This document shows positions 102-9,825 of a stretch of DNA of 64,000 nucleotides, one piece after another (positions within the stretch are counted from its first letter, which is position 1; every line of letters starts with the position of its first letter). Source of the stretch: Desulfoscipio geothermicus DSM 3669 (GTDB lineage: Bacteria > Bacillota > Desulfotomaculia > Desulfotomaculales > Desulfallaceae); NCBI RefSeq assembly GCF_900115975.1, contig NZ_FOYM01000005.1, positions 1 through 64,000 on the forward strand, written 5' to 3'. The translations under genes were made by a program, and so were the position numbers. The notes below the pieces were generated by a model. It was not told the origin of the DNA and searched no databases. It was given only the letters and a program-made list of their open reading frames with translations.

Positions 102-1466
102 TCATTCAAGCCGGTTATTCAAACGGCCCAACATCACCGAAAACGCCAACCCCAGGGCCAGCGTACCCGGGATGACCGCCATTGCGCTGTAAGTGTGCCA
201 GAGCACCAGGTAAACCATGGCGATGACAATGGACATCAGCATCAGCGGGAAACCGACAATAAAAAACTGAAAGAAGCCGATGGTAACATTGTTCCTTTCC
301 GCCATCCCCAAAGCCACCAGGTTGGCTGAGGCGCCGACTATGGTGCCGTTACCGCCCAGGCAAGCGCCCAGTGCCAGGGACCACCATAGAAAGTCAATAT
401 TTCCCAATGACCCCAGGCGGCCCATTTCCTTGATCAGTGGGATCATAGTAGCGACAAAGGGAATATTGTCTACGAAGGAAGAAGCCAGCGCCGACAGCCA
501 GAGTATTATCATTGCCGAGGGGAATACCGCTCCTTGCGTTGTTTCCAGGGCAAGCATAGCCAAAAATTCAATGACCCCGGTGTCCTCCAGGGCGCCCACC
601 ACTATAAAAAGTCCGGTAAAAAAGAAAATAACCGGCCATTCCACACCATGCAGGGCGTGCTCGGGGTCAAAACGGGTTATGGCAAGTAAAAAGGATGCTC
701 CTGACAAGGCAATGACCGAACTTTCCAGGTGAACGACCTGGTGAAGGGCAAAGCCAATAATGGTTAAAACTAAAACAGCAATACTTTTTTTCATTAAAAC
801 GGGATCCTTGATCTCGTTTTTCTCATCTATTTCCAAGATTGATTGCTGCAGTTGCGAAGTTGTCTGCAGGTCGTTGCGGTATATGCGGATTAAAATGAAA
901 ACAGTCAGTGGAAATATTACAATAACGACAGGTGCCAGGTTGATTAAAAAATCCATAAACCCCAGGTGCGTGGCGCTGCCGATCATGATATTCGGCGGGT
1001 CGCCGATAAGGGTGGCCGTTCCTCCAATATTGGAGGACAGGATTTCCGTAAGAATGAAAGGGAGCGGGGCGACTTGCAGCTTTCTGGTGATGGCCAGGGT
1101 GACCGGCACAATCAACAGGATGGTGGTCACGTTGTCCAGCAGGGCCGAAAAAACAGCGGTTAGCAGCGCCAGCGAGGCCAGGACCTTCAACGGCTCGCCT
1201 CGGGCTATCCTGCTGGTTCTGATGGCCACATATTCAAAAATACCCGTCTGGCGGGTAATCCCAACGATAATCATCATGCCCACCAACAGTCCGATGGTGT
1301 TAAAATCTATGTAATGGACGGCTTTATCAGGTGTCAGTATTTTAAATATCATTACCAAAGCGGCTCCGGTGAAAGCGGCTACGGTGCGGTGTATTTTTTC
1401 CGAAACTATCACGGCATAAGTTATCAAGAATATAATGACGGACCAAAAGGATGCATTAGCAGCCAT
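102..1466 (-). CDS. ArsB/NhaD-superfamily membrane permease
   Basis: A 454-residue integral membrane protein of the ion-transporter (ArsB/NhaD, SLC13-like) superfamily. It probably exchanges or extrudes an anion or sodium across the cytoplasmic membrane; the substrate cannot be read from sequence. Roughly eleven or twelve hydrophobic segments are visible, with the two pseudo-symmetric family signatures SALLDNVTTILLIVP near residue 108 and SSFVDNIPFVATMIP near residue 337, and the motif GGTATLIGDPPN between them. The start ATG at 1466 is preceded by a good AGGAGGT site; an upstream in-frame ATG at 1565 lacks one. It stands alone and is separated from the selenium genes by about 200 bp. Confidence 0.85.
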   Translation of the reverse strand: MAANASFWSVIIFLITYAVIVSEKIHRTVAAFTGAALVMIFKILTPDKAVHYIDFNTIGLLVGMMIIVGITRQTGIFEYVAIRTSRIARGEPLKVLASLALLTAVFSALLDNVTTILLIVPVTLAITRKLQVAPLPFILTEILSSNIGGTATLIGDPPNIMIGSATHLGFMDFLINLAPVVIVIFPLTVFILIRIYRNDLQTTSQLQQSILEIDEKNEIKDPVLMKKSIAVLVLTIIGFALHQVVHLESSVIALSGASFLLAITRFDPEHALHGVEWPVIFFFTGLFIVVGALEDTGVIEFLAMLALETTQGAVFPSAMIILWLSALASSFVDNIPFVATMIPLIKEMGRLGSLGNIDFLWWSLALGACLGGNGTIVGASANLVALGMAERNNVTIGFFQFFIVGFPLMLMSIVIAMVYLVLWHTYSAMAVIPGTLALGLAFSVMLGRLNNRLE

Positions 1467-1671
1467 TCGATTACCTCCTATAACATAAATAATGTCTTTT
1501 TTTGACTTTTTAAATACAGGTGACAAAAAAAGTATTTTTATGCTGGATTCATCCCGGTAAGCCAAAAATAATGAACCGTAAAGTACTTGAAATCTCTTGA
1601 TATATAAATAAAAAGCAGGTGACTTGTTGTCACCCGCTCAAATACATTGAATACTACTTGTTCTTGTAAAT

Positions 1672-2286
1672 TTACGCTATGGTTATGGTTTTATACGGTC
1701 CGTACAGCCAGTTGTTAATGTCAAACATGTTGGATATATTACCCAGTTGAAGTTTATCTTTCAACTTATAATACTCCAGGCAGGTGCCGCAGGACAACAC
1801 CGCGGTGCCGGCGGCATGCAGCTTTTCCAGTTGCTCCAGCACCGGGGATCCGTCGCAGGTGAGGAATACTCCGGTGTTTAAAAACAGCAGCGCCGCCGGG
1901 GGGGGGTCCATGGCCGCCAAAGTGGTGAACAGGCTTTTCATTAGCACGTGACCCAGGTCCGGGGAACCCTGGCCCAGCGAGTTGGTGGTGATAAAATATA
2001 CCGGCGCGCCGGTGACTGCCGGTGTGACCGGTTTTCCATCCGGGACGGTTTCCCGGGCGGGGGCGCTTTCCTGACGGTCGATGGTTAAATGAAAGGCGCC
2101 GTCGGCTTGTTTTTCGGTAACGGTGTATCCGGCGTTGCGGGCAAACAATGTGACATTCTGTCGCGCCACGTCGTTATCCACTATGGTAGTGACGGATGCG
2201 ACACCGGGTTCTTCGATGGCTTTTTTGGTGTTGATGACGGGCTGCGGGCAGGCCAGCCCGCGGCAGTCTACGGTTTTATGGGACAT
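1672..2286 (-). CDS. yedF: Selenium-metabolism protein YedF (TusA-like plus DsrE-like)
   Basis: A 204-residue cytoplasmic protein. Residues 1-70 form a TusA/SirA sulfur-carrier domain with the signature CRGLACPQPV, whose first conserved Cys is the expected persulfide or selenide carrier. Residues 90-200 form a DsrE-like domain with a CGTCLEYY motif. Members of this family regularly sit beside selD and are thought to handle reactive selenium for selenophosphate synthesis; that role is inferred from context. The start at 2286 has AGGAGG seven bases upstream; the longer in-frame start at 2310 reads through this site and is unlikely. It is co-directional with selD, with repeat copy 2 in the 322-bp gap between them. 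Confidence 0.88.
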   Translation of the reverse strand: MSHKTVDCRGLACPQPVINTKKAIEEPGVASVTTIVDNDVARQNVTLFARNAGYTVTEKQADGAFHLTIDRQESAPARETVPDGKPVTPAVTGAPVYFITTNSLGQGSPDLGHVLMKSLFTTLAAMDPPPAALLFLNTGVFLTCDGSPVLEQLEKLHAAGTAVLSCGTCLEYYKLKDKLQLGNISNMFDINNWLYGPYKTITIA

Positions 2287-2344
2287 TGTTTTCCTCCTTT
2301 TAAGTGACATTGCAAGAATCGTTCAAAAATGTTAATTCCGCAGA

Positions 2345-2608: not shown

Positions 2609-3649
2609 TTAGACAATCCTAATAAGCTTTTCCCCGGGGGGTGAGACTTTACCGATGACGGCGGCCTGAACATTTTGCCGGTTCAGTTCCGCCATGAACC
2701 GGCTAACGACGGCTTCGGGCATGGATATCAGCAGGCCGCCTGAAGTTTGCGGGTCAAACAGCGCCATCTGTTCCTCGGGCTTAAAGCCATTGACAAAGCG
2801 TATATTTTCCTCCAGGTGGCCCTTATTGTCGTAAGCCCCGGCGGGAATAAGCCCCATGCGGGCCATGTCCAGCGTTTCCGGCAGCATGGGGATGGATGAG
2901 AATGCAATTTCCAGGCTTACTTTACTGGCGGCGGCCATTTCCGCGGCGTGCCCCAAAAGGCCAAACCCGGTGATGTCGGTGCAGGCATTGGCGCCACATT
3001 GCATCATAACCAGGGAGGCCGCCTTGTTTAAAGCGGCCATGCTTTGTACCGCCAGATTTGCCGCTTCCACGGAAACCAGTTCCGCCTTTATACCGGTGTT
3101 GATGATGCCGGTGCCCAGTGGCTTGGTTAATACCAGCCGGTCGCCGGGACGGGCAGTGGCGTTGGTGATAATGCCGGCGGGGTGCGCCAGGCCGGTGACG
3201 GCAAGCCCGTATTTGGGTTCATCGTCGCGTACGGTGTGTCCCCCGGCGATGATACCTTCAGCTTCGACAACCTTGTCGGCCCCGCCCTGTAAAATCTCCT
3301 GTAAAACGGCAATGGGCAGGCAGTCGGGGAAACAAACGATATTTAAAGCCATGAGCGGTTGTCCTCCCATGGCGTAAATGTCGCTCAAAGCGTTGGCAGC
3401 GGCGATCTGTCCGAAAAGATACGGGTCGTCCACCATCGGGGTGAAAAAGTCCACGGTTTGAATAAGCGCCTGACGATCGTTCAATTTATAAACGGCGGCG
3501 TCGTCCGAGGTATCGAGCCCGACCATCAGTCGGGGGTCATGGGTGACCGGTAAATGTCGCAGCACCTGCGACAGGGTATGCGGCCCTATTTTGGCCGCTC
3601 ACCCGGAAGTTTTGGCCAGACCGGTCAGTTTGATTGTTTGCTCCGGCAT
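2609..3649 (-). CDS. selD: Selenide, water dikinase SelD, selenocysteine-containing
   Basis: SelD makes selenophosphate from selenide and ATP, the selenium donor for tRNA-Sec and selenouridine. The continuous reading frame starts at 3565, but the family's N-terminal catalytic segment lies upstream in the same frame. From ATG 3649 (GAAGGAGG-like site upstream) the protein reads through a TGA at 3599-3601, residue 17, in the context TSG-U-AAKIGP. This is where other SelD proteins have the catalytic Cys or Sec, so the product is a 346-residue selenoprotein. The ATP-binding segment (VGLDTSDDAAVY, about residues 43-54), the AINDxxAMGG-like loop (ANALSDIYAMGG, near 87) and the C-terminal DPQTSGGLL are all present. 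It is divergent from the second selenoprotein gene. Confidence 0.93.
3555..3598 (-). promoter_or_regulatory. Candidate bSECIS of selD
   Basis: Two hairpins follow the selD UGA within the coding sequence. The first, GCGGCCAAAATAGGGCCGC (3598-3580), abuts the UGA. The second, TGTCGCAGGTGCTGCGACA (3573-3555), has eight perfect pairs, and its GUG loop begins 34 nt after the UGA, within the 16-37 nt range usual for bacterial SECIS elements. Which hairpin SelB would use cannot be decided by eye. Confidence 0.6.
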
Positions 3650-3791
3650 AATTGGCTTCGCCTCCTTCACTAATAGCATGTCACCGAATATTCTTTTTAA
3701 AATCCAAGTTTCCTTTATTAATGTAATAAAAAAATTTTATAAATATGCAAGGTGGCAGAAATAATATTTATTGCCGCATTAATTAAACCAG

Positions 3792-3797
3792 TTGACA
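3792..3797 (+). promoter_or_regulatory. Candidate -35 box for the small selenoprotein gene
   Basis: TTGACA at 3792-3797 is a perfect sigma-A -35 hexamer, 90 nt before the TTG start at 3887. No clean -10 box sits at 17-nt spacing. TATGGT at 3813-3818 (15-nt spacing) is the nearest candidate. Confidence 0.35.
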
Positions 3798-3886
3798 AAT
3801 AAAAAGGACATCTATGGTGTACATTAAAGGCATGAGTATGATAAAATTTGAAGGGTATAAAGTTACCATACAAGGAGGAAGTTAAC

Positions 3887-4225
3887 TTGGAGCAGCAATT
3901 TGAAGTGATTATTTTCGGTTTGGATGCCCCGACGCCCCATGTTGGCTGAGGGCCGCGGCCTTCCGCCGGGTGCGGAACGGAAAAGACCATGAAACAGGAA
4001 GCTGAAGATTTGGGCTTAGCCCTCAAAGAAAACTTTGGTGACAAAGTTGATGTCAAGTTTGTGGATGTCTCTACCGATGAATTAAAGGATTATCCTAAAA
4101 TAGTGTCTATTTTGCCCAGGGTGCGCCTGCCGCTGACGGTAATCAATGAAGAACCCCGTTTTCATGGCGGTATTTCCGCTGAAGTAATTTCCAATGCGTT
4201 ACAGGAAATGAAACAGTCTGAGTAA
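3887..4225 (+). CDS. Small thioredoxin-like selenoprotein (UGA read as Sec)
   Basis: An ORF finder sees only a 78-residue fragment from ATG 3989, which has no ribosome site. A strong AAGGAGGAA site precedes TTG 3887. Translation from there is in the same frame and is interrupted only by TGA at 3947-3949. Read as selenocysteine this gives 112 residues: a beta strand (FEVIIFGLDAP), U21, Cys29, an amphipathic helix (residues 31-50), a second strand (VDVKFVDVST), the conserved-looking segment PLTVINEEPRFHGG, and a final helix. The beta-alpha-beta...beta-beta-alpha order and the cis-Pro-like PLTV resemble small thioredoxin-fold disulfide proteins such as YuzD, but I cannot name the family. Its position opposite selD and the hairpin after the UGA support the reading. 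It is probably a redox protein. Confidence 0.82.
3961..3977 (+). promoter_or_regulatory. Candidate bSECIS of the small selenoprotein
   Basis: The hairpin TTCCGCCGGGTGCGGAA has six perfect pairs and the loop CGGGU. The loop starts 17 nt after the UGA (3947-3949) and contains the GGU typical of bacterial SECIS apical loops. It lies inside the coding sequence, as bacterial SECIS elements do. Confidence 0.65.
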
Positions 4226-4313
4226 AAGGGATTGCATCTCTGGAATATTTAACCACAGTTGCGTTATTTTTCCCCTTCCTGCCGCATAGATTAGTGGCAG
4301 GGGGGGATTTTTT

Positions 4314-4598
4314 ATGGCTTGGAAGGATTTGAAAAACAAATTCAAGAGGCAGTTTTCCGACTACCTGGAATTGCCCGGCGATATTATGTTGGACTTGCCT
4401 AAAATTGTTCTGGTGGGTAACCAGCAGGTATTTATCGAAAACCATCGCGGTATCCAGGAATATAACCCCGGACTGGTCCGGGTTGTGGTCAGCGATAAAA
4501 TTATTGAAGTCACCGGAGAGAACCTGACCTTGCGCAATATACTACCCGATGAAATATGCGTGGAAGGGCAGATTACCGCGCTTACCTTCTTGAGTTAG
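4314..4598 (+). CDS. yqfC: Sporulation protein YqfC
   Basis: A 94-residue protein matching the YqfC/YabP-like family, made in the mother cell during sporulation and found only in endospore formers. The typical segment LPGDIMLDLPKIVLVGNQQVFIENHRGI covers residues 18-46, and the C-terminal half is a short beta-rich domain. Its molecular role is unknown. It heads the run yqfC-yqfD-phoH-pgpH-ybeY-dgkA-cdd-era, an order well known in Bacillus and Clostridia, and yqfD starts 14 bp after its stop. Confidence 0.9.
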   Translation: MAWKDLKNKFKRQFSDYLELPGDIMLDLPKIVLVGNQQVFIENHRGIQEYNPGLVRVVVSDKIIEVTGENLTLRNILPDEICVEGQITALTFLS

Positions 4599-4611: not shown

Positions 4612-5913
4612 TTGCTGTTTAAATTATTGGCTTACCTGGGCGGGTTTGTAACCATAGCGGTGTCGGAAGACTGCCTGGAAAAATTTTTAAATATGGCCTC
4701 TACCCGGGGGATTTATCTGTGGGGTATTGCCAACGCGGGGCGGAACCGGGTAGAGTTGAAAGTGCGTTTGAGCAGTGTACAGCCGTTGCGACATGTGGCC
4801 CGGATGACGCGCTGCCGGTTTCAAATTGTGGAGCGGGCGGGCCTGCCCTTTTTTGTCGGCAGAATGAAGCGGCGCAAAGCATTGCTGGGCGGGGCGCTTT
4901 TTTTTGTGGTGGTATTGTACATACTTTCCTCGTTTGTGTGGTTCGTTGATGTGACGGGCAATCGATCAATTGCCAGGGAACAGGTTTGTAAAGCAGCCCG
5001 TCAGGCCGGGCTTTATCGCGGAGTCCCCAAGTGGTCCGTTGATACGGCCAAAGTGGAAGAAACTGTGCTGCGACAAGTTCCCGGCCTGTCATGGGTGGGC
5101 GTGTACGTAGATGGGACAAGGGTTCGTATTAAATTGGTGGAAAAGGTGCTTCCGCCGGACACAGGCCAAGAGAAACCTGCCGATGTGGTAGCCGTGAAGG
5201 ATGGCTTAATAAAAGAAATATTGGTTTTAAACGGGCAGCCCCGGGTCAGCGAAGGGGATACCGTCACAGCGGGGCAGGTGCTGATCTCCGCAGCCGTACC
5301 GCCACCCGACCCGGAGGAAAACCTGGAGCCGGGAGAGGAACCGTCTGAAGAACCCGAACAGACGCCAGAGCCGGTAAAATACGTGCATGCCCGGGGGATT
5401 GTGCGGGCCCGGGTCTGGTACGAAGATTACAAGGAAATGCCGTTGGTGGAAAGGGGTGTCAGGTCGACGGGTCGGGAAATTACCAAACTTTGCATGAAAA
5501 TCGGGGGTAAGGAAATAATTTTTATGGGGCCACGGCAAATTCCATACGAGCATTTTGAAGCGCAGACGAACGGTAAAAGGCTGCCGGCGTGGAGGAATAT
5601 AAGTATTCCCGTCGAATTTATAACGGTTAAATATCACGAGGCAAAACCATATGTGCACAGGTATAGCAAGGCGCAGGCCCGCCGCCTGGCATCCGAACGG
5701 GCATTGGCCGATATTCGCTCGCGTATGCCCGCCGGCGCCAGGATTCTTAAAAAACAGGTTCAGGTAGTGGAAACCAATGAGCCCGAGGATATAGTCCGGG
5801 TCAAGGTGCTGGTAGAAGCGCTGGAGGAAATAGGCAAGGAACGGCCTCACGTAGCCGATAGAGGAGGGTCCGGTATAGTTGACGGAAAACGTGGAAGCCA
5901 GGGTAATAATTGA
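4612..5913 (+). CDS. yqfD: Sporulation protein YqfD
   Basis: A 433-residue single-pass membrane protein of the YqfD family, needed for efficient sporulation in Bacillus; its biochemistry is unknown. Residues 1-85 form the cytoplasmic N-terminal domain, residues 90-110 a transmembrane helix, and the rest is extracytoplasmic. An unusual Pro/Glu-rich linker lies at about residues 228-254. The TTG start at 4612 has an AGGAGGTGG site about ten bases upstream. The last 35 bases overlap phoH in another frame, suggesting translational coupling. Confidence 0.92.
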   Translation: MLFKLLAYLGGFVTIAVSEDCLEKFLNMASTRGIYLWGIANAGRNRVELKVRLSSVQPLRHVARMTRCRFQIVERAGLPFFVGRMKRRKALLGGALFFVVVLYILSSFVWFVDVTGNRSIAREQVCKAARQAGLYRGVPKWSVDTAKVEETVLRQVPGLSWVGVYVDGTRVRIKLVEKVLPPDTGQEKPADVVAVKDGLIKEILVLNGQPRVSEGDTVTAGQVLISAAVPPPDPEENLEPGEEPSEEPEQTPEPVKYVHARGIVRARVWYEDYKEMPLVERGVRSTGREITKLCMKIGGKEIIFMGPRQIPYEHFEAQTNGKRLPAWRNISIPVEFITVKYHEAKPYVHRYSKAQARRLASERALADIRSRMPAGARILKKQVQVVETNEPEDIVRVKVLVEALEEIGKERPHVADRGGSGIVDGKRGSQGNN

Positions 5914-9045: not shown

Positions 9046-9457
9046 GGATGAAATGGTTCATTTGCTCGCCGGGGTAGTTAATGAGGCGCTGGTGTCTGAA
9101 GGCGCGGATAAGGATGCCGAGGTGAGCCTGGTGTTTGTTGATGACAATTATATTGCGCAGCTCAACAAGCAGTATCGCGGCAAGGACGGTCCCACGGACG
9201 TGCTCAGTTTTGCAATGCAGGAAGGCCCCGCCATGCCGGGCGGTGAGGGAGAGATTTTGCTGGGCGACGTGGTGATTTCCCTGGAAACCGCCCGGCGCCA
9301 GGCTGAGGAATACGGGCATGGTCTTGCCCGGGAGGTGGCTTACCTGACTGTGCACGGGGTACTGCACCTGCTGGGATACGACCACGAAACGGAAGCGGAC
9401 AAAAGGGTTATGCGGCAGAAGGAAGAGGCTGTTCTTGACCGGATGCTGAAAGGGTGA
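9002..9457 (+). CDS. ybeY: Endoribonuclease YbeY (rRNA maturation)
   Basis: A 151-residue zinc-dependent RNase of the UPF0054 family, used in 16S rRNA 3'-end maturation and ribosome quality control. The diagnostic histidine triad is in HGVLHLLGYDH near residues 118-128, after the family segment RGKDGPTDVLSF. The start is GTG 9002, within the end of pgpH, preceded by an AAAGGAGAAAG site. It shares GTGA with the start of dgkA, a four-base overlap typical of coupled translation. Confidence 0.94.
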   Translation: MPVLVNNLQEKVSVEDEMVHLLAGVVNEALVSEGADKDAEVSLVFVDDNYIAQLNKQYRGKDGPTDVLSFAMQEGPAMPGGEGEILLGDVVISLETARRQAEEYGHGLAREVAYLTVHGVLHLLGYDHETEADKRVMRQKEEAVLDRMLKG

Positions 9458-9825
9458 GCGGAGTGCGGCGGCTGGTGCAACGCATCGGGTGGGCGCTGAA
9501 TGGGATAGGCTATACCGTAAAGACGCAACCAAACATGCAAATCCACTTGACGGCGGCGGTGCTTGCGGTATTGCTTTGCCTCTACCTGCGCATGCCGGCG
9601 CGGGAACTGGCAGTGGTTTTAGTAACCATATTCATGGTGTTGGCGGCCGAAATGTTCAATACCGCTTTGGAAGCTGCCGTGGACCTTTATACGAGGAAAC
9701 GCCACCCGCTGGCCCGGGCGGCCAAGGACGTGGCCGCCGGCGCGGTGTTGCTGACTGCGCTGAATGCCCTGGTGGTGGCCTACCTGCTGATTTGGCCCCG
9801 TTTTTATGAGGTAATCATTAAGTGA
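9454..9825 (+). CDS. dgkA: Diacylglycerol/undecaprenol kinase (DgkA family)
   Basis: A 123-residue membrane protein with three hydrophobic segments and the family core AEMFNTALEAAVDL near residues 66-79, where the conserved Glu and Asn bind metal-ATP. In Gram-positive bacteria this family mainly phosphorylates undecaprenol for cell-wall lipid carrier recycling. The start GTG 9454 overlaps the ybeY stop. cdd begins nine bases after its stop. Confidence 0.92.
   Translation: MSGVRRLVQRIGWALNGIGYTVKTQPNMQIHLTAAVLAVLLCLYLRMPARELAVVLVTIFMVLAAEMFNTALEAAVDLYTRKRHPLARAAKDVAAGAVLLTALNALVVAYLLIWPRFYEVIIK

Follow-up and report, generated by a model that had tools for sequence, protein, structure and literature searches.

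The locus considered here raises the question of whether a TGA codon near the start of an otherwise open reading frame ends a gene or encodes selenocysteine (Sec), and what a protein carrying Sec at that position might do. Within the window (the whole stretch of Desulfoscipio geothermicus DNA that was analysed, 64,000 nucleotides), the frame as read from the sequence runs on the forward strand from a TTG at 3887 to a TAA at 4223-4225, and the TGA at 3947-3949 is its sole interruption, as the initial annotation of this DNA had described. The strong ribosome site that had been placed before the TTG is also there. Translation with Sec at the TGA gives MEQQFEVIIFGLDAPTPHVG-U-GPRPSAGCGTEKTMKQEAEDLGLALKENFGDKVDVKFVDVSTDELKDYPKIVSILPRVRLPLTVINEEPRFHGGISAEVISNALQEMKQSE, in which U21 and C29 are the only chalcogen residues. 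The features of the gene are as follows.

3872-3879, forward strand: ribosome-binding site AAGGAGGA, 7 nt upstream of the TTG start.
3887-4225, forward strand: complete selenoprotein gene as proposed, 112 codons plus TAA, with M1 (TTG), U21 (TGA) and C29.
3947-3949, forward strand: in-frame TGA, almost certainly selenocysteine 21; TGA in all 14 f1/f18 orthologues, TGA or a Cys codon in other homologues.
3961-3977, forward strand: bacterial SECIS-like hairpin with a 6-bp stem (3961-3966/3972-3977) and the loop CGGGT (3967-3971).
3971-3973, forward strand: Cys29 codon TGC, presumed resolving or partner residue, its third base paired in the SECIS stem.
3989-4225, forward strand: 78-residue ORF left by table 11, truncated and not the real gene.

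The one-TGA frame at 3887-4225 is more than chance, because only this gene and selD passed a six-frame scan of the 64 kb that required a single TGA, a start preceded by a Shine-Dalgarno sequence, at least 100 codons in total and at least 60 after the TGA. Homologues were present in 31 of the 60 related genomes searched; nearly all of the strong ones contain exactly one TGA, in the same column, and a few carry no in-frame stop. An alignment of 49 sequences has four invariant columns (F10, U/C21, P82 and G94), and the search that had been proposed for Cys or Sec at residue 21 thus finds one or the other there throughout. The starts of the orthologues coincide with that in the window (TTG in L003, L004, L005 and L006, ATG in the others), with AGGAGG or GGGGG at the same ribosome-site position. 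Since the homologues share both the start and the U or C at residue 21, the contrary picture entertained in the initial annotation, of homologues that all begin at or after residue 35 with no Cys or Sec conserved at 21, clearly fails. Each of the 14 orthologues examined, drawn from family f1 and two f18 genomes, has TGA as codon 21, and for the 12 of these that remained when two with an indel were left out, pN/pS was 0.29 over the 18 codons before the TGA versus 0.31 over the 29 after it. Purifying selection is thus the same on both sides of the TGA. Coding conserved on either side of an in-frame UGA and Cys homologues at the Sec position, which run straight through codon 21, are both marks of a bacterial selenoprotein, and the homologues, the conserved TGA and the two-sided selection together bear out the proposal of a 112-residue selenoprotein hidden by an in-frame UGA. 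The class and phylum samples yielded about 70 distinct Sec-type (TGA) and about 30 Cys-type sequences, whose tree contains 15 changes between the Sec and Cys states, at least 6 of them forced by well-supported branches.

The hairpin that had been noted downstream, with a GGU-containing loop 17 nt after the UGA, exists, although the distance of 17 nt applies to the loop and not to the stem. Its support comes from covariation, not stability. In an alignment anchored on the Cys29 codon, the five stem pairs, which in the window join TCCGC to GCGGA, are standard in 83.8% of cells versus 74.3% in shuffles and the stem covariation score is 0.277 versus 0.109, both being shuffle tests that ignore relatedness; partners slid out of register give 23-58% standard pairs, versus 84% for the true partners. 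Replacement of Ala GCN by Thr ACN is accompanied by a synonymous change of the Cys codon from TGC to TGT (G-C to A-U), and the wobble base of the Gly codon that follows tracks its partner (U-A, U-G, G-C, G-U, A-U). The five pairs are formed in 92, 92, 76, 61 and 76% of Sec-type genes, and in Cys-type genes these figures are down to 17, 35, 70, 17 and 52%. The hairpin, SECIS-like with G residues in its loop just 3' of the UGA, thus covaries in Sec-type genes and is largely lost in Cys-type ones. A single-sequence fold of the 45 nt after the TGA was not unusually stable in the window (z +0.14), the mean z over 71 genes was -0.74, and single-sequence stability was not significant; thermodynamic z-scores of single SECIS candidates were set aside as uninformative, and covariation and the Cys-type control were used instead. 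An Rfam search of 3500-4400 gave no match.

The machinery for Sec insertion is encoded in the same genome: a tRNA-Sec with a TCA anticodon, a SelB over its model's cut-off, and a Sec-containing SelD with its own in-frame UGA at codon 17. SelB was present in all 77 family-bearing genomes tested (below the model's cut-off in one), and in the phylum sample of 399 genomes it was found in 63 of 66 carriers versus 203 of 333 others (Fisher p = 1.4e-9, a test that ignores relatedness). The three carriers that lack SelB have family copies without a TGA. Decoding of UGA 3947 as selenocysteine is, in our judgement, close to certain. Cys-type members too are nearly confined to SelB genomes (63/66 carriers overall), which suggests that more than its Sec residue ties the family to the use of selenium.

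The initial annotation had called the protein thioredoxin-like, and the predicted model (mean pLDDT 81) agrees, its order of elements, beta-alpha-beta-alpha-beta-beta-alpha, being that of the thioredoxin fold; the Sec loop (residues 19-30) is modelled at a pLDDT below 50. Sequence-profile search and structural comparison both rank 1xg8 first among PDB entries; this DUF1462/YuzD protein (PF07315; S. aureus SA0789/SA0798) has the same predicted fold and element order. In the structural comparison its TM is 0.70, and thioredoxins and ArsD (3mwh) come next. In profile-profile comparison (hhalign), DUF1462 scored 91.3% with the close family and 97.4% (E 1e-11) with the wider one, ArsD 6.9% and 95%, and the PF13192 thioredoxin set 7% and 87%, the last over the C-terminal 45 columns only. 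On these comparisons the family belongs with the DUF1462/ArsD branch of the fold, nearest to DUF1462/YuzD and then to ArsD. By formal criteria the window protein itself falls outside every one of these named families. Pfam and NCBIfam gave no match to it even at E 10, and it does not reach the gathering cut-off of PF07315, which some distant Cys-type members do pass. YuzD proteins have a CxxC (CASC) at the start of helix 1 and no Sec, whereas the present protein has U-x7-C (5 to 11 apart in the family). Thioredoxins (PF00085) share with it the Pro before strand 3, here the invariant P82, but the CxxC or UxxC motif is absent; C29 and a spacing that differs from the standard redox motif had both been pointed out from the sequence and are borne out by it. 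The Sec.1/Sec.2 proteins ('redox-active disulfide protein 2', PF13192) are likewise small selenoproteins of thioredoxin fold, and those of Brachyspira have Sec in an N-terminal extension before the PF13192 domain (PMC5330540). Identity with them was rejected by domain and by Sec position, members of the present family matching PF13192 only at E 0.013 or worse.

The best explanation of these observations, to which we assign a probability of roughly 0.6, is that the gene encodes a Sec-decoded thioredoxin-fold protein in which U21 and C29 form a reactive pair and which serves as a reductant or carrier for selenium or a metalloid. The comparative evidence shows that SelB and tRNA-Sec read UGA 3947 as Sec, with the hairpin just 3' acting as the SECIS. 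Sec21 would lie in the flexible loop that links strand 1 to helix 1, where it could pair with Cys29; U21 would attack or bind the substrate and C29 would resolve the product, so that the pair may close reversibly as a selenenylsulfide. Alternatively, U21 and C29 may jointly hold a soft electrophile such as an oxidised thiol or an arsenic or selenium species. The substrate face would be formed by the cis-Pro-like P82 and the PRFHGG strand. We infer a redox or metalloid-binding role for Sec21 and Cys29. For the selD-linked clade, in which the window protein has no other Cys, we take this to be that of a dithiol-type reductant or carrier in selenium or metalloid handling; paralogues in ars operons, with their additional Cys or Sec residues, would probably bind or reduce arsenic species.

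Could the protein instead be a dedicated partner of SelD and YedF, reducing selenium or carrying it (as a selenenyl or perselenide form on U21/C29) to selenophosphate synthetase under a shared divergent control region? The initial annotation had located the gene opposite selD; selD does adjoin it, and the correct term is divergent, the two genes having a common 237-bp upstream region. The neighbours are:

1672-2310, reverse strand: yedF, sulfurtransferase-like selenium metabolism protein (TIGR03527, 1.1e-56, over the cut-off), syntenic in related genomes.
2609-3649, reverse strand: selD, selenophosphate synthetase, itself a selenoprotein (U17, TGA 3601-3599), syntenic in related genomes.
4314-4598, forward strand: yqfC, sporulation protein and downstream neighbour (TIGR02856, 2e-26, over the cut-off).
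4612-5913, forward strand: yqfD, sporulation protein (TIGR02876, 2.1e-94, over the cut-off).

The block yedF-selD / gene-yqfC-yqfD is kept in f1 genomes and in two f18 genomes where the contig allows it to be seen, the selD-linked genes form a single clade of the tree that is entirely Sec-type, and the near confinement of the family to SelB genomes, Cys forms included, also speaks for such a partnership. However, in other Sec-using families the genes are found at different sites (next to ars genes, ligA-gatA or miaB-mutS), and the synteny could be plain descent; conserved synteny alone is no proof of a role in selenium metabolism. We consider so specific a function unlikely. In this neighbourhood, an inverted repeat (CCTGCC...GGCAGG, followed by T's) at 4270-4316 on the forward strand overlaps the yqfC ribosome site and might serve either to terminate transcription behind the selenoprotein gene or to control yqfC. 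Beyond yedF lies an ArsB/NhaD/MamN-like permease (102-1565, reverse strand), which ArsB models matched below their cut-off; it was left out of the block, since only 3 of 11 orthologous neighbourhoods, some of them too short to show it, have such a gene near yedF. None of the genes next to the selD-linked copy is an arsenic gene of established function. A search of plasmid records gave no match.

Arsenic genes are found instead around other members of the family. For 60 paralogous or distant loci outside the selD-linked set (except L139), chosen regardless of context and read for about 6 kb on each side, a gene for Acr3, an ArsP-type permease, ArsA or ArsM was near 27, an ArsR-like regulator near 23 and Acr3 near 18. 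Representative neighbours were confirmed as ACR3 (TIGR00832, 9e-140), ArsR/SmtB, an ArsA-type ATPase and ArsP_1. Typical gene orders are arsR-acr3-gene and arsR-arsD-arsA-arsA-gene (the latter in L154, L155 and L166), and other branches of the family adjoin ligA-gatA or miaB-ylbF-mutS. The ars-linked branches are richer in Cys and Sec, with motifs such as SCUGPPTEDACCGS and GGUGCGSGSTGCGP.

This setting is consistent with a further possibility, that the protein is an ArsD-like arsenite metallochaperone with Sec in place of one As(III)-binding cysteine. ArsD (PF06953, NF033727) and the ArsD-related VcpD (NF047871) both have a thioredoxin-like fold with a Cys cluster after strand 1; the likeness to ArsD extends to the ars-operon setting of many paralogues, which can lie directly downstream of acr3 or arsA, to the wide-family profile (95%), to the CU...CC loops of some paralogues, which resemble the CC...C of ArsD, and to the ArsD structure among the fold matches. 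The window protein, however, has just two chalcogen residues, lies outside any ars operon, and lacks the vicinal Cys pair and third Cys of ArsD (C12, C13 and C18, seen in A2); no ArsD or VcpD model reaches its cut-off on it. The close-family profile, at 6.9%, leaves only the wide family related to ArsD, and plain ArsD membership was rejected for the window protein. Moreover, a genuine ArsD (PF06953) is encoded beside the family member in L155, and the neighbours in L154 and L166 cluster with the L155 protein, which argues against simple replacement of ArsD there; because these operons encode both, the family is not ArsD under another name. A Sec-bearing ArsD thus seems doubtful for the window protein. 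VcpD was rejected as well, its weak matches to some members (best 8.8e-6) lying, where scored, far below the 90-bit cut-off; a search of 250 phylum genomes found no VcpD, and no control matched in it.

Two readings in which Sec has no part can be dismissed. In the first, the TGA is an ordinary stop, the real gene is the 78-residue ORF that begins at 3989, and the frame before it is a leader or a remnant of decay. Table-11 gene calling does yield this ORF, as had been foreseen for automated calling, but the conserved upstream codons, the TGA kept in every orthologue, the uninterrupted Cys homologues and the thioredoxin beta-1 strand that would be missing make this reading extremely improbable, and homology already refutes it. 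Decoding of the TGA as Trp or Cys, for which nothing specific speaks, can be given as little credence, since homologues that depart from TGA have Cys there, both the machinery and the SECIS are specific for Sec, and SelB occurs in every TGA-bearing genome checked.

Relative to the initial annotation, the relation to the DUF1462/ArsD superfamily, the arsenic-operon paralogues, the switching between Sec and Cys and the covarying SECIS are new. The family is not recognisable in the May 2026 inventory of 119 selenoprotein families (PMC13188914), whose members likewise have an in-frame UGA, a SECIS, Cys homologues and mostly thioredoxin-type folds, and the family lacks a model in NCBIfam 20.0; mention elsewhere in the literature is possible, and a search for work linking ArsD or acr3 to selenoproteins found nothing relevant. 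We tentatively propose, at somewhat less than even confidence, an unlisted and widespread selenoprotein family of Bacillota that uses Sec in arsenic and selenium chemistry through selenol-thiol loops on a DUF1462/ArsD-type fold. Its genes would be built into acr3, arsP and arsA operons, apart from a branch linked to selD, and a further branch would bear adjacent Sec-Sec from tandem UGA-UGA. Because standard annotation would truncate or miss these genes and no curated model matches them, they would constitute a set of selenoproteins that has stayed hidden throughout Bacillota. Should arsenic prove to be the substrate of the ars-operon copies, Sec in metalloid binding or reduction would be a recurring device. 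The selD-linked copy is a candidate for the handling of selenium or reducing power near selenophosphate synthetase, a step termed incompletely elucidated (PMC13188914), and for DUF1462/YuzD, a family with no assigned function as yet, the relationship provides a testable connection with redox and metalloid chemistry.

Several observations on the paralogues may be added. In four of them, from two genomes (G097 and G098), two TGA codons stand in tandem at the Sec position (AGCS-UU-GP), and in each case a hairpin comes next, for example GGCTGCAGGATGCAGCC; two neighbouring Sec residues encoded in this way would be a rarity. The four lie at:

L175, about 9396-9743, reverse strand
L220, 3016 onward, forward strand
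L221, 2582 onward, forward strand
L222, reverse strand

Many family-bearing ars operons (L125, L129, L130, L136, L147, L149, L158, L175 and L177) also encode a GcvH-like protein alongside lipoate ligase, lipoyl synthase, dihydrolipoyl dehydrogenase, OsmC-like or DGC-domain proteins, a grouping that hints at a lipoyl carrier in the handling of arsenic. Finally, two ars-operon neighbours (L130, 7748-8539, and L129, 6836-7969, both on the reverse strand), with the motifs CCGPDCC and CTLC, are akin to the DF family (seleno)protein NF049942, the L130 protein scoring 56 bits against a cut-off of 70.
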